Shown one piece after another: positions 52,177 to 57,479 of a DNA stretch of 64,000 nt. A program made the translations under genes and the position numbers. Under the pieces are notes generated by a model that searched no databases, had not been told where the DNA came from, and saw nothing but the letters and a program-made list of their open reading frames with translations. The DNA lies in NCBI GenBank assembly GCA_027484685.1, contig JAIXSO010000069.1, positions 1 through 64,000 of the forward strand, written 5' to 3'. Source of the stretch: Bacteroidota bacterium. GTDB taxonomy: Bacteria > Bacteroidota > Bacteroidia > UKL13-3. How positions within the stretch are numbered: position 1 is the first letter of the stretch; every line of letters starts with the position of its first letter.

Positions 52177-53184
52177 TCACCTTGGGTAGCTAAATTGTTT
52201 GTTAAATAGAAATTCTTTATCGGTTAGGGTAAGTAAAAAGGCTGTAATATCTACTTTTTGGTTACTAGTTAGTATAATAGGTTGTTTTAAAGCAGGAGAG
52301 AGGTTGCTGTAATGCACTATTCCGTTAGTGTAATGATGTAACACTTGAGATAATTTTTTAAATCTACCATCGTGCATGTATGGAAACGAAAATTCAATAT
52401 TGCGTAAAGTGGGTACTTTAAATTTAAGTGAGTCTGTGGCTTTTTGTGTAATACGCATTCTTCCCCAATCGTTTAATATAGTATCAACGGGCAAACCATT
52501 GTTTTCAAACTGAAGGTTGGTAAATAATGGTTCGGTATGGCAGCTTGAGCAATGTTGTTTAAAAAGCAAATAACCGTTTTGTTCTTGTTGGGTAAAAGTA
52601 TCTTTTTGTTGCATTACCTTATCGTATTTACTGTTTGCACTAACAAGGGTTAGCATAAATTGCGACAAGGCTTTTAAAGTTCTTTCGCCTGTTATTAAAC
52701 TATCGCCATAGGCACTAAAAAATAGGTTTTTATAACGTGGTAATTGGTTAAGTTTTAAAATAACATGTTCTATTTTTTCGTCCATCTCATCGTGGTTTTC
52801 TATGGGCGCTAATGATTGAAAATCTAAATGATGTATGGCTCCATCCCACATAAAATTGGTATGCCAAGCCAAATTCATCAAGGCAGGAGTATTTCGGTTT
52901 CCAATTCTGTCTTCTATTCCATGGCTTAAAGCATGGTCAACATGTGTAAAGGCTGTGTATTGCGAGTGACACGAAGCACAAGAAATGGTATTGTTTTTTG
53001 AAAGGATTGGGTCGTAAAAAAGAACTCTTCCTAATAAAATTTTTTCATCAGTAAGCGGATTTTTACTAAAATCATAAGTAGGTTTTGGCCAGCCATTTGG
53101 AATGGTAAAATCAAAAGTTGATTGTAACTTAAAGCCACAGAAAACCACAGAAATAGCAATTAAAACAAATAAGTACTTTTTCAT
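52177..53184 (-). CDS. MbnH-family di-haem enzyme
   Basis: A 335-residue di-haem protein of the MauG/cytochrome c peroxidase superfamily. The haem sites are CASCH (C69, C72, H73) and CSSCH (C212, C215, H216), with a GIEDRIGNRNTPALMN loop after the first and MHDGRF near residue 275. A signal peptide or anchor opens the protein. MbnH partners oxidise a Trp in MbnP to kynurenine, helping MbnP bind copper. The gene overlaps mbnP by 4 nt, so they are translationally coupled. Confidence 0.85.
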   Translation of the reverse strand: MKKYLFVLIAISVVFCGFKLQSTFDFTIPNGWPKPTYDFSKNPLTDEKILLGRVLFYDPILSKNNTISCASCHSQYTAFTHVDHALSHGIEDRIGNRNTPALMNLAWHTNFMWDGAIHHLDFQSLAPIENHDEMDEKIEHVILKLNQLPRYKNLFFSAYGDSLITGERTLKALSQFMLTLVSANSKYDKVMQQKDTFTQQEQNGYLLFKQHCSSCHTEPLFTNLQFENNGLPVDTILNDWGRMRITQKATDSLKFKVPTLRNIEFSFPYMHDGRFKKLSQVLHHYTNGIVHYSNLSPALKQPIILTSNQKVDITAFLLTLTDKEFLFNKQFSYPR

Positions 53185-53870
53185 TTTACTTTAAATAGTT
53201 CTGCTAATTTTTTTGAAAGTAAAACACTGTTTTCGCTTGGCGACATGATTTGATATACCTTACTCATATCTAAACCTGTTAAGAATTTATTTACCTCTAT
53301 TACAAAAGTAATTCTTTGTTTTTTATTGGTTTTAAAACGCAAGGTTTGCAACGCATTATTTGGATATAAATACCCACCTAAATGGTATTGAAACTGCTTG
53401 TATCTTGATGGACTTTTTTTGCTTTTGCCTTCTATTTTAAAATTGATATAACCACTTTGCCAAGTCCAATACATGCCTTTGGTTGGGTCCAAATCACCAC
53501 TTAATACTTCTGCCACATTCAAACTACTATCAATTCCTAAATTAAATTGAATGGCGTTGTGTTTTTTGTTTAGAGGGTATAATAAATTGATGGTTAATGA
53601 TGTTGGATTTGCTAAATCAATTAAATAGGCCAAAGTTGAATCGGCAAATACTACTTGGTTGTTATTGAATAACTGAATTTTTGAAACATAAAATCTGCAA
53701 GTTTCAATGCTGATGGTATCGTTATTAGGTAAAATATAGTTACTATCTAATTGTAAAGGTAAATTATTAAACAATCCCTTGAAATTAAGTTGAATAGATG
53801 CGTTTTTTTGAGCAAATACCAATGAACAAGAAATACATAAAATCAATACAATAAACCTACTTAACTTCAT
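53181..53870 (-). CDS. MbnP-family protein
   Basis: The ATG at 53870 gives 229 residues with a signal peptide cut after ...LVFAQ. Family motifs include ETCRFYVSKIQLF, FNLGIDSSLNVAEVLSGDLDPTKGMYWTWQSGY and YQFHLGGY-like QFQYHLGGY. Two Trp residues in MYWTWQSGY are candidates for modification. MbnP proteins bind copper in the periplasm. The gene lies between the sensor gene (4-nt gap) and mbnH (4-nt overlap). Confidence 0.85.
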   Translation of the reverse strand: MKLSRFIVLILCISCSLVFAQKNASIQLNFKGLFNNLPLQLDSNYILPNNDTISIETCRFYVSKIQLFNNNQVVFADSTLAYLIDLANPTSLTINLLYPLNKKHNAIQFNLGIDSSLNVAEVLSGDLDPTKGMYWTWQSGYINFKIEGKSKKSPSRYKQFQYHLGGYLYPNNALQTLRFKTNKKQRITFVIEVNKFLTGLDMSKVYQIMSPSENSVLLSKKLAELFKVK

Positions 53871-53874
53871 GCTT

Positions 53875-54324
53875 TTATTGTTTTGGTTTACGGTTAAATA
53901 ATTGTGCAATTTCGGTAGTTAATAGCTCAAATTTTTGCATTTGTTGGCCAGGTTTGCAAATAGCTTTTATTTTTTCAAAATGTTTATAATGAGTATTTTC
54001 AATTTGTATTTGGACTTTGCCAATTTCTGTAATAAGTGAGTCTTTTAATGTTTCATTTGTATTATTATTCAAGCCTTTATACAATTCATTTTTTAATTGC
54101 ATTATTTGTCTATCCGCTTCTTTAATGGCTTTTCTGTGTTCTAAAATGATACCATCATAAGCAGTTGTTTGTTCGGGAGTAAAATCCAATTTTTGAATAA
54201 TCTCATCTCTTGGTCCTTCGTGCTTTGGCCTGTTGTTTCTGCCTAAAAATAAAAATACAATCAATATAATATTTGCAACCAATAATCCAATTACCAGTAT
54301 GCTTAAAAGTTTTATTTTATTCAT
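53875..54324 (-). CDS. CpxP/CnrR-like periplasmic sensor protein
   Basis: A 149-residue protein with one N-terminal TM helix (about 5-27) and a helical periplasmic domain with LDFTPEQTTAYDG and a C-terminal HYKHFEKIKAICKPGQQ. This is the Spy/CpxP/CnrR fold that senses metal or envelope stress. Next to an anti-sigma-like and a sigma gene it resembles the CnrYXH sensor layout. It overlaps the next gene by one base. Confidence 0.82.
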   Translation of the reverse strand: MNKIKLLSILVIGLLVANIILIVFLFLGRNNRPKHEGPRDEIIQKLDFTPEQTTAYDGIILEHRKAIKEADRQIMQLKNELYKGLNNNTNETLKDSLITEIGKVQIQIENTHYKHFEKIKAICKPGQQMQKFELLTTEIAQLFNRKPKQ

Positions 54325-54593
54325 TAATATAACTCGTTATTAGGAACCAAATGCATAGCTTTTACTAGACTATTTTCTTGCTTTTGTGTTTTTAAATTAA
54401 TGGTAATTACAGCAGCGTTTATTAATAAAATAAATACCATAGCAATACTCAATTTCCAAACTAATTTAGGCTCAAACTTTTGGTTTTGGTGGTTAATTTT
54501 AGCTTGTATGCGCGTAAACAAAAATGGAGGAGCATCTACTTTTTGTATATGTTCTAATTTATCTAGCTCGTTATCTATTATCTCTTTATTCAT
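54324..54593 (-). CDS. Small membrane anti-sigma-like protein
   Basis: The 89-residue protein has a cytosolic N-terminus with charged helix (IIDNELDKLEHIQKVDAPPFLFTRIQAKI) and one TM segment at about 44-66. PPFLFTRIQAKI is a pattern I know from anti-sigma-type partners of Bacteroidota ECF genes. It sits between the sigma and sensor genes (7-nt gap to sigma). Confidence 0.75.
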   Translation of the reverse strand: MNKEIIDNELDKLEHIQKVDAPPFLFTRIQAKINHQNQKFEPKLVWKLSIAMVFILLINAAVITINLKTQKQENSLVKAMHLVPNNELY

Positions 54594-54600
54594 GGCGATA

Positions 54601-55146
54601 TTATTTTAGACTTTTATTATCTTGTTTTCCTTCTATATTGGTTAACTTTTTTTGTAAATTAACTTTGGCTCGTTGCACTAGGGATTCTACAGCTTTGGGG
54701 CTTAACTCCATAATATCAGCAGTTTCTATTTGCGATTTTTGTTCAATTTTGGTCAATATCAAAGCAGTTTTTTGTTTTTCAGGTAATTGATTAATTAATT
54801 CAAATAAATTTTTTAGTGCTTCTTTGTTTTCTAACTGCACTCCAGGATGGTCAAAATTGGCAGGTTCGTGCATCAATTTATCATCTTCTAAATTAAATAA
54901 ACTTGTAAGAAAGGCAAAACGTTTTTTACGTTTACGTTTATTGATGAGGTCAATAGATTTATTGATAGTAATTTTATAAATCCAAGTACTTAGTTTGGCA
55001 TCTGCTCTAAATCCATCCATTGATTGGTAAACAGATAAGAATACATCTTGCGTAATTTCCTCAGCATCTTCCATGTTTTGAACATACTGAAGCGCAAGGT
55101 TATATACCAAGTTTTTGTATTCGTTATATATCTTTTCTATTTCCAA
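54601..55146 (-). CDS. ECF-type RNA polymerase sigma factor
   Basis: A 181-residue sigma-70 family protein starting at TTG. Region 2 spans about residues 8-75 (YNLALQYVQNMEDAEEITQDVFLSVYQ, then AKLSTWIYKITINKSID) and region 4 about 115-165 (LPEKQKTALILTKIEQKSQIETADIMELS, ending VQRAKVNLQKKL). It is the promoter-proximal gene of the five-gene operon and should drive it when released by the membrane partner. Confidence 0.92.
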   Translation of the reverse strand: MEIEKIYNEYKNLVYNLALQYVQNMEDAEEITQDVFLSVYQSMDGFRADAKLSTWIYKITINKSIDLINKRKRKKRFAFLTSLFNLEDDKLMHEPANFDHPGVQLENKEALKNLFELINQLPEKQKTALILTKIEQKSQIETADIMELSPKAVESLVQRAKVNLQKKLTNIEGKQDNKSLK

Positions 55147-55294
55147 TTATGATCTGCAATAAACAATTTTTAAGCATAATTAGAGCTAATCAATTGAAAC
55201 AGTTTAGTTATAAGTAAGTATTTTAATTTTGCATAGAATAGTTTTTTAGTTTGGCATACCTAACATATATTTGACAAATTTAACCACTCACTCC

Positions 55295-56830
55295 ATGTTT
55301 AAAAAAGATAATTTTTCATCTGACTTATCTGCCTCTGTTGTCGTCTTTTTTGTAGCTCTGCCATTGTGTTTAGGTATTTCACTGGCCTCTGGTGCTCCAC
55401 TAGTTTCTGGTCTTATTGCAGGTATTTGCGGAGGAATAGTTGTTGGTTTTTTTAGTGGCTCACATACCAGTGTTAGTGGTCCTGCGGCTGGTTTAACAGT
55501 AATAGTTTTAGTAGCGATTCAGCAATTAGGTGGCTTCGAAGTTTTTTTAACAGCTTTACTTTTAGCAGGTATTATGCAACTTGTTTTAGGGTTTTTAGGA
55601 GCTGGTATTATTGGAAATTTTGTTCCATCAGCTGTTATTAAAGGTATGTTGGCTGCAATTGGCATTATTTTGATTTTTAAACAATTGCCCCATGCGGTTG
55701 GTTACGATATTGATTTTGAAGGTGATGAATCGTTTGATCAATTAGATCACCAAAATACATTTACTGAGTTGCTAAATGTATTTAGTAGGTTTACTATAAC
55801 AGCAGTCTTAACAAGTGTGGTAACTTTTGCTGTATTGTTTTTTGGTGAAAATGATAAAATTAAAAAGTTTAGTCTTTTTAAAGCAGTCCCTATTTCGCTT
55901 TTGGCTGTAATAATTGGCACATTATTTAGTATTATTATAGGAATAGTTTCGCCCAATATGGCTTTGGCTAGTGAGCATTTGGTACAAATTCCACCTGTTT
56001 TAAATAAAGAAAATTTTCATTTCCCTAATTTTTCAAAAATTGCTGAAATTGGAGTAATAATAGTAGCAATAAAAATAGCCTTAGTGGCTAGTTTAGAAAC
56101 ATTACTTAGCATAGAAGCTACTGATAAATTAGACGAACAAAAAAGATTGACTCCAACCAGTAAGGAGTTAATTGCACAAGGTATTGGAAATATTGTATCG
56201 GCATTAATTGGTGGATTGCCCATAACGGCAGTTATAGTAAGAAGCAGCGCAAATATTGTAGCAGGTGCAAAATCAAAAATGTCGGCAATTTATCATGGTA
56301 TTTTATTGTTAATTAGTGTTTTGTTTTTAACTGCTGTAATGAATAGAATTCCATTATCTAGTTTAGCTATATTATTACTTTTTGTGGGTTATAAACTAAC
56401 CAAACCTGTATTGTATAAAGAATTGTATAAAAATGGTTTAGACCAATTTTTACCATTTATAATTACTGTTATTGCCATTGTTTTTACCGATTTGTTAAAG
56501 GGTGTTGCTGTTGGGTTATTGGTATCAGTTTATTTTATTATAAAAAATACATATAAACGCTCCGTTTCATTAACTAGCGATGCTGATAATTATTTAATTC
56601 GTTTAAAAGGAAATGTTTCGTTTTTAAACAAAGCAGTTTTGCGTAATCACTTCGAAAAAATGCCTAATGGTGCATATGTTATTATTGATGGAGCAAGTGC
56701 TTTATTTATTGATAAAGATATTATTGAAATAATTGAAGAATTTATATTGATGGCGCCCTTTAAAAATATTACTGTTGAAAAAAAATTATCTTCCTCAAGT
56801 CCTAATCTATATTTTAAAAAACTAAACTAA
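55295..56830 (+). CDS. SulP-family anion transporter (bicarbonate type)
   Basis: I place the start at the ATG at 55295 (511 residues). The SulP core has [26 protein letters not shown] (residues about 8-33) and [22 protein letters not shown], then ten or more TM helices. The usual C-terminal STAS domain is short or degenerate ([28 protein letters not shown]). The adjacent carbonic anhydrase gene, 1 nt after the stop, indicates bicarbonate rather than sulfate transport. Confidence 0.9.
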
Positions 56831-56831
56831 C

Positions 56832-57479
56832 ATGAACGAATATGAAAAATTAATTTTACAAAACAAATCATGGGTAAGCGATAAACTTGATTTAGACAAG
56901 GATTATTTTAATAATTTAGCAGGAATTCAAAAACCAGAGTTTTTATGGATTGGTTGTTCAGATAGTAGGGTACCTGCAAACGAAATTACCAACACAGAAC
57001 CTGGAGAAATTTTTGTACATAGAAATATAGCTAACTTGGTGGTTAATACTGATTTTAATATGTTAAGCGTATTACAATATGCAGTTGAGGTATTAAAGGT
57101 AAAACACATCATAGTTTGTGGTCATTATGGTTGTGGAGGGGTTAAAGCTGCCATTACCAATCATCATTATGGCATGTTAAATAAGTGGTTGCGAAATATA
57201 AAAGATGTTTACCGTTTACATCACGATGAATTAAGTAAAATTACCGATGAAGAGCAAAAAACTGATGCCTTGGTTGAATTTAATATAATAGAACAAGTAA
57301 ATAATTTAGCCAAAACATCTATTGTTCAAAAGGCATGGCAAAATGGTGAATTTCCTATTTTACATGGATGTGTGTATGGTTTAAAAAGTGGAATCTTAAA
57401 AGACCTAATTAGCCTTGACAGAAATTCGCCAATGGATAGTTTATATAAATTTGATTTTGAAGATGGTTTAGAAGATTAG
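56832..57479 (+). CDS. Beta-class carbonic anhydrase
   Basis: A 215-residue enzyme converting CO2 and bicarbonate. Zinc ligands are C42 (GCSDSR), H98 and C101 (CGHYGCGG), and the D44-R46 dyad is intact. HRNIANLV follows at about residue 63. Fusion-like spacing to the SulP gene (1 nt) points to co-translation and channelling of imported bicarbonate to CO2 for carboxylases. Confidence 0.95.

Follow-up and report, generated by a model that had tools for sequence, protein, structure and literature searches.

A probable CnrYXH-like, copper-responsive sigma factor unit preceding MbnP and MbnH genes in Bacteroidota

Five genes on the minus strand at positions 52177-55146 of a 64,000-nucleotide stretch of a Bacteroidota genome (the window; contig JAIXSO010000069.1, assembly GCA_027484685.1) encode, in order, an ECF sigma factor, a small membrane protein, a membrane-anchored sensor, an MbnP-family protein, and an MbnH-like di-haem protein. 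We have moderate confidence in reading them as one transcription unit, in which a transmembrane sigma switch is coupled to a periplasmic copper-binding pair. The first three genes are probably a CnrYXH-like, copper-responsive switch for the MbnPH module. Gene layout and family assignments have strong support, and the function put forward for them is a good hypothesis. The features of the region are as follows.

54601..55146, minus strand: ECF sigma factor gene, 181 aa, TTG start (PF04542 and PF08281)
54324..54593, minus strand: small single-pass membrane protein, 89 aa, probable anti-sigma factor (position, topology)
53875..54324, minus strand: membrane-anchored periplasmic sensor of the CnrX/CpxP/Spy superfamily, 149 aa (predicted fold, profile matches)
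53181..53870, minus strand: MbnP-family periplasmic protein, 229 aa (PF20243, fold match to 7l6g)
52177..53184, minus strand: MbnH-like di-haem MauG/CcP-family protein, 335 aa (PF03150)
55147..55270, minus strand: intergenic region between the sigma gene and the divergent SulP gene, presumed promoter region (sequence)
55271..56830, plus strand: SulP-family permease, divergent neighbour, outside the operon (PF00916)

The tight packing described in the initial annotation is borne out, with all five open reading frames at the positions claimed for them. Successive gaps are 7, -1, 4, and -4 nt: the membrane-protein gene starts 7 nt past the sigma gene, the sensor gene overlaps it by 1 nt, mbnP follows the sensor gene after 4 nt, and mbnH overlaps mbnP by 4 nt. 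These values take as the likely MbnP start the ATG at 53870, within a longer TTG open reading frame from 53909. About 80 related operons have median gaps of 30, -4, -4, and -4 nt. Beyond the divergent SulP gene, within 55271-57479, lies an ORF that reads from its sequence as a beta-carbonic anhydrase-like protein; the two are probably a bicarbonate uptake pair.

The gene order sigma factor, membrane protein, sensor, MbnP, MbnH is found again in relatives across Bacteroidota and Ignavibacteria, in dozens of genera. Across the class, 100 of the 395 genomes searched contain sensor homologues. A sigma gene lies just upstream at 78 of 81 sensor loci, and MbnP and MbnH lie downstream at 36 and 44 of the same 81. 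Because all three recur around these loci, the five-gene order is not a product of chance. The initial annotation had named loss of this neighbourhood in relatives and failure of MbnP against its family model as refutations, and neither came about.

Both proteins of the pair belong to their Pfam families and fall outside the NCBIfam equivalogs. MbnP scores 142.3 bits against PF20243 (cut-off 27, E 2e-41) but only 46.4 against TIGR04052 (cut-off 140), and MbnH scores 178 bits against PF03150 (E 2e-52) but 207 against TIGR04039 (cut-off 362.85). The family names given in the initial annotation thus stand at the level of Pfam and not of NCBIfam, where TIGR04052 and TIGR04039 are nevertheless the top models for the two proteins despite the missed cut-offs. 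The NCBIfam cut-offs are likewise missed by members from other Bacteroidota (relatives in Flavobacterium) and by both paralogous MbnPH pairs of the same genome, and the window proteins are divergent members of the Pfam families. After one paralogous pair (L069:1305-5836, contig C25) come genes for an HMA metal-binding protein and a TonB-dependent receptor; the other (L068) has a gene for an M36 peptidase bearing a secretion tail in its vicinity. In one relative, Flavobacterium sp. JAD_PAG50586_2 (L256), MbnH appears as two adjacent ORFs (186 and 105 aa), which may reflect a sequencing error or a broken gene.

An AlphaFold2 model of MbnP (pLDDT 93, from a 62-row alignment) matches only 7l6g, MbnP of M. 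trichosporium, significantly by Foldseek, at E about 3e-9 to 9e-9. VIA-align superposes the two over 206 residues (Z 17.8, rmsd 2.6, next unrelated hit 4.6), which agrees with the original call; searches of PDB sequences with MbnP, single or as a profile, gave no MbnP match, and the relationship was found by fold search alone. The motif M133-Y-W135-T-W137 has its M133, W135, and W137 invariant among 62 relatives, in which H163 is 98% conserved; the protein thus retains a WxW site and candidate ligands for copper. MbnH aligns over residues 23-334 with 6e1c, a "Di-heme enzyme," and carries two CxxCH motifs, CASCH and CSSCH. In M. trichosporium, MbnH reportedly oxidises a tryptophan of MbnP to kynurenine, and the modified MbnP is said to bind copper. 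The initial annotation saw no methanobactin genes beside the pair. MbnB and MbnC are indeed unmatched in the whole 4.5 Mb genome, with the MbnC half of that result weakened by a silent control.

The first gene of the cluster is an ECF sigma factor as had been proposed, with region 2 (PF04542, 63 bits) and region 4 (PF08281, 47 bits) both above cut-off and no other regions. Its TTG start, also noted earlier, is confirmed, and is immediately preceded by an in-frame TAA. TTG is the sole start option in about 27 of about 70 MbnPH-linked sigma genes (orthologues at loci L033, L050, L057, L060, L119, L121, L124, and others), and 13 further genes offer only GTG or TTG; the gene after sigma in such operons starts with ATG in 61 of 64 cases. 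The TTG start may keep sigma levels low. The 89-aa protein encoded next has one hydrophobic stretch, at about residues 49-67, and matches no family in Pfam or NCBIfam and no PDB chain. In relatives, too, its gene sits between those for sigma and sensor, and from position and topology only we take it to be a probable anti-sigma factor. A sequence search linking it to CnrY gave no match, and its short single-pass form is compatible with CnrY. Both here (54324-54350) and in homologues, the periplasmic tail has a conserved NNxLY at its end, where the sensor might dock.

The third protein misses the gathering score of PF13801 (13.0 vs 29.2 bits, E 0.12), a model that matches 8 of 10 members of the sensor alignment at E up to 1 (best 4e-9). 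Its predicted structure, built with 57 homologues (pLDDT 90.5), starts with a membrane helix at the N terminus and continues as a four-helix unit. CnrX entries take ranks 1-8 in VIA-align, with Z up to 11.8 over 106 of 109 residues; this falls short of the 13 recommended for helical bundles, though one coherent superfamily heads the list, with a VirG-like protein, Spy, CpxP, NccX, and ZraP ranking next. The fold search therefore supports the CnrX/CpxP-like nature suggested for this protein by the initial annotation, which had called it CpxP/CnrR-like. Independently, the sequence profile gives Spy at E 4e-8, NccX at 0.003 (over 1-139), and CnrX at 0.014. Two LTxxQ-like motifs are present (FTPEQ52 and CKPGQQ), and Q52 and Q128 are invariant among the 57 homologues. 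H63 and H115 are conserved at about 95% and C123 at 86%, and the two histidines are kept regardless of cargo type. By a count of residues, H63 would face H115 across an antiparallel hairpin that turns near residue 88.

In the mechanism we propose, this inner-membrane sensor would detect metal in the periplasm (copper being the likeliest) at a site to which H63 and H115 contribute, and would relay the signal to the small membrane protein, which would otherwise hold the ECF sigma factor. The freed sigma factor would transcribe its own operon, so that MbnP and MbnH are made. MbnH, di-haem and MauG-like, would then oxidise a tryptophan of the WxW motif of MbnP, probably to kynurenine if the methanotroph precedent applies, and the modified MbnP would bind copper. 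As to the sign of the response, the analogy with CnrX suggests induction by metal.

An unlikely competitor keeps the same switch and makes peroxide or envelope stress its signal, sensed in the manner of CpxP and Spy or through the conserved Cys123, with MbnH acting mainly as a peroxidase. Spy is, after all, the best profile match to the sensor, C123 is well conserved, MbnH belongs to the MauG/CcP family, and some related operons include genes of the AhpC/TSA family. Yet leucine replaces C123 in 9-27% of sensor homologues, and two near-invariant histidines together with copper-linked cargo suit a metal better. Were the signal a metal, it might still be nickel, cobalt, or zinc, as for CnrX, ZraP, and NccX, with the MbnP-like protein handling that metal. 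The nearest folds to the sensor are nickel/cobalt sensors. CnrX binds metal through ligands that include His42, His119, and Met123, the last a nickel/cobalt ligand. Mapped by alignment end-points, sensor H115 falls near CnrX His119, the CnrX His42 position has no histidine in sensor homologues, and the Met123 equivalent is nearly always aliphatic in all groups. This lack of the methionine, the absence of RND efflux genes from the related operons seen, and the copper proteins among the linked families (MbnPH, SCO1, multicopper oxidase) make these other metals an improbable choice, and copper stays our preferred signal.

The sigma unit and mbnPH are also found apart. Named genomes contain 558 MbnP relatives. 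Among the best 80 of these, MbnH is nearby in 79, and the sensor unit stands directly before mbnP in 43 of the 76 that could be assessed (among them the isolates Flavobacterium lotistagni and Flavobacterium sp. WG47, together with Ignavibacteria and a Kapaibacterium) and is lacking in 33; some genomes are common to this set and the 81 sensor loci, so the counts are not additive. The 33 loci that stand without it indicate that the unit is not essential to mbnPH. Within the genus of the window, two of the genomes examined have the unit; in others, which lack it, mbnPH still stands next to the same genes for SulP and carbonic anhydrase. On a tree of MbnH, presence of the unit is clustered, with at least 5 changes on well-supported branches. 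From these changes, and from the same-genus loci that lack the unit, we conclude that the sigma/sensor unit is a separable control module. There is no need to suppose that a source outside the genus replaced the locus, with MbnH (68%) and SulP (76%) not far apart in their divergence within the genus and only MbnP fast (41%), and a plasmid origin was set aside when the sensor found no match in plasmid records. The regions upstream of 65 sigma genes, searched for a two-box promoter, scored 51.9 against 47.4 and 40.5 for shuffles and yielded no usable motif. It is very improbable that the sigma unit runs another regulon, with mbnPH merely co-transcribed or under its own promoter, since the missing promoter motif, the tree changes, and the unit-free relatives that would fit so loose a link are set against genes that overlap and an order that recurs so widely.

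The same control unit also precedes other cargo. MbnP, MbnH, YHYH (PF14240), multicopper oxidase, or SCO1 lies downstream at 58 of the 81 sensor loci, and no copper-linked cargo is nearby for 22 of 123 sensor homologues. The gene after MbnH usually encodes, whether or not the sigma unit is present, a YHYH protein of about 450 aa with a type IX secretion (T9SS) tail (e.g. L118:3834-5201), and 65 of 80 named loci contain a YHYH gene. An alternative cassette behind the sigma/sensor unit consists of a YHYH-like protein, a MORN-repeat-like protein, and SCO1/SenC (observed at L136, L145, L135, L152, L153, L160, L163, and L195). The genome of the window has one sensor homologue only and a single YHYH gene, on another contig, so mbnPH is the only adjacent cargo of the unit there. 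Read from family membership, the cargo found elsewhere (YHYH, multicopper oxidase, SCO1) has a copper theme. One may tentatively go further and suppose a phylum-wide, undescribed class of CnrX-type sigma switches that has its own anti-sigma family (marked by NNxLY), is tuned to copper, and has a modular set of copper cargo under its control, made up of MbnPH, multicopper oxidase, SCO1, and the T9SS-tailed YHYH proteins. We regard this broader reading as possible and somewhat less than likely.

Three relationships to described systems help place the unit. CnrYXH of Cupriavidus metallidurans comprises a sigma factor, an anti-sigma factor, and a periplasmic nickel/cobalt sensor (PMC7689651). The likeness to CnrYXH claimed in the initial annotation holds for architecture (a three-gene unit of an ECF sigma factor, a small single-pass membrane protein, and a membrane-anchored sensor) and for the sensor fold, whose best match is CnrX. 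It does not extend to the known metal site. The window unit also has sigma first, and its cargo is MbnPH rather than an RND pump. Because the sensor lacks the CnrX Met123 ligand and sequence comparison detects no relationship between the membrane protein and CnrY, we have not filed the unit as a CnrYXH system. The cargo itself resembles MbnP and MbnH of M. trichosporium OB3b in MbnP fold, WxW motif, and adjacent di-haem MauG-like partner, and differs from the methanotroph pair in falling below the equivalog cut-offs, in having no methanobactin genes found with it, and in its regulator; the window MbnP is also shorter, with 229 aa in the precursor against about 287 residues for the chain in 7l6g. 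Methanotrophs, finally, have an ECF/anti-sigma pair, MbnI/MbnR, with TonB-transporter genes beside isolated mbnPH pairs (PMC3621798; PMC9601215). That pair, of FecI/FecR type, is likewise tied to copper loci containing mbnPH, but it goes with a TonB-dependent transporter, whereas in the window the partner is a CnrX-like sensor and a TonB transporter is absent.

The mbnPH pair has been known since 2013 to extend far beyond methanobactin producers (PMC3621798). The literature searched, mostly outside subscription journals, contains no description of a conserved CnrX-type sigma unit before mbnPH, and a search on YHYH and MbnP found no work on Bacteroidota. Because the operon has a sigma switch of its own, it would offer a handle on the signal to which mbnPH responds outside methanobactin producers, and the recurring five-gene order makes the copper role of the pair outside methane-eaters testable. 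A class I anti-sigma partner accompanies only 6% of Bacteroidetes ECF sigma genes (PMC7406223), so other partner classes should be expected, and the 89-aa membrane protein is a candidate for one of them. The recurring neighbour with a YHYH domain and type IX secretion tail gives the uncharacterised YHYH family a functional hypothesis: if the phylum-wide copper switch is real, YHYH would be a secreted member of a copper pathway.
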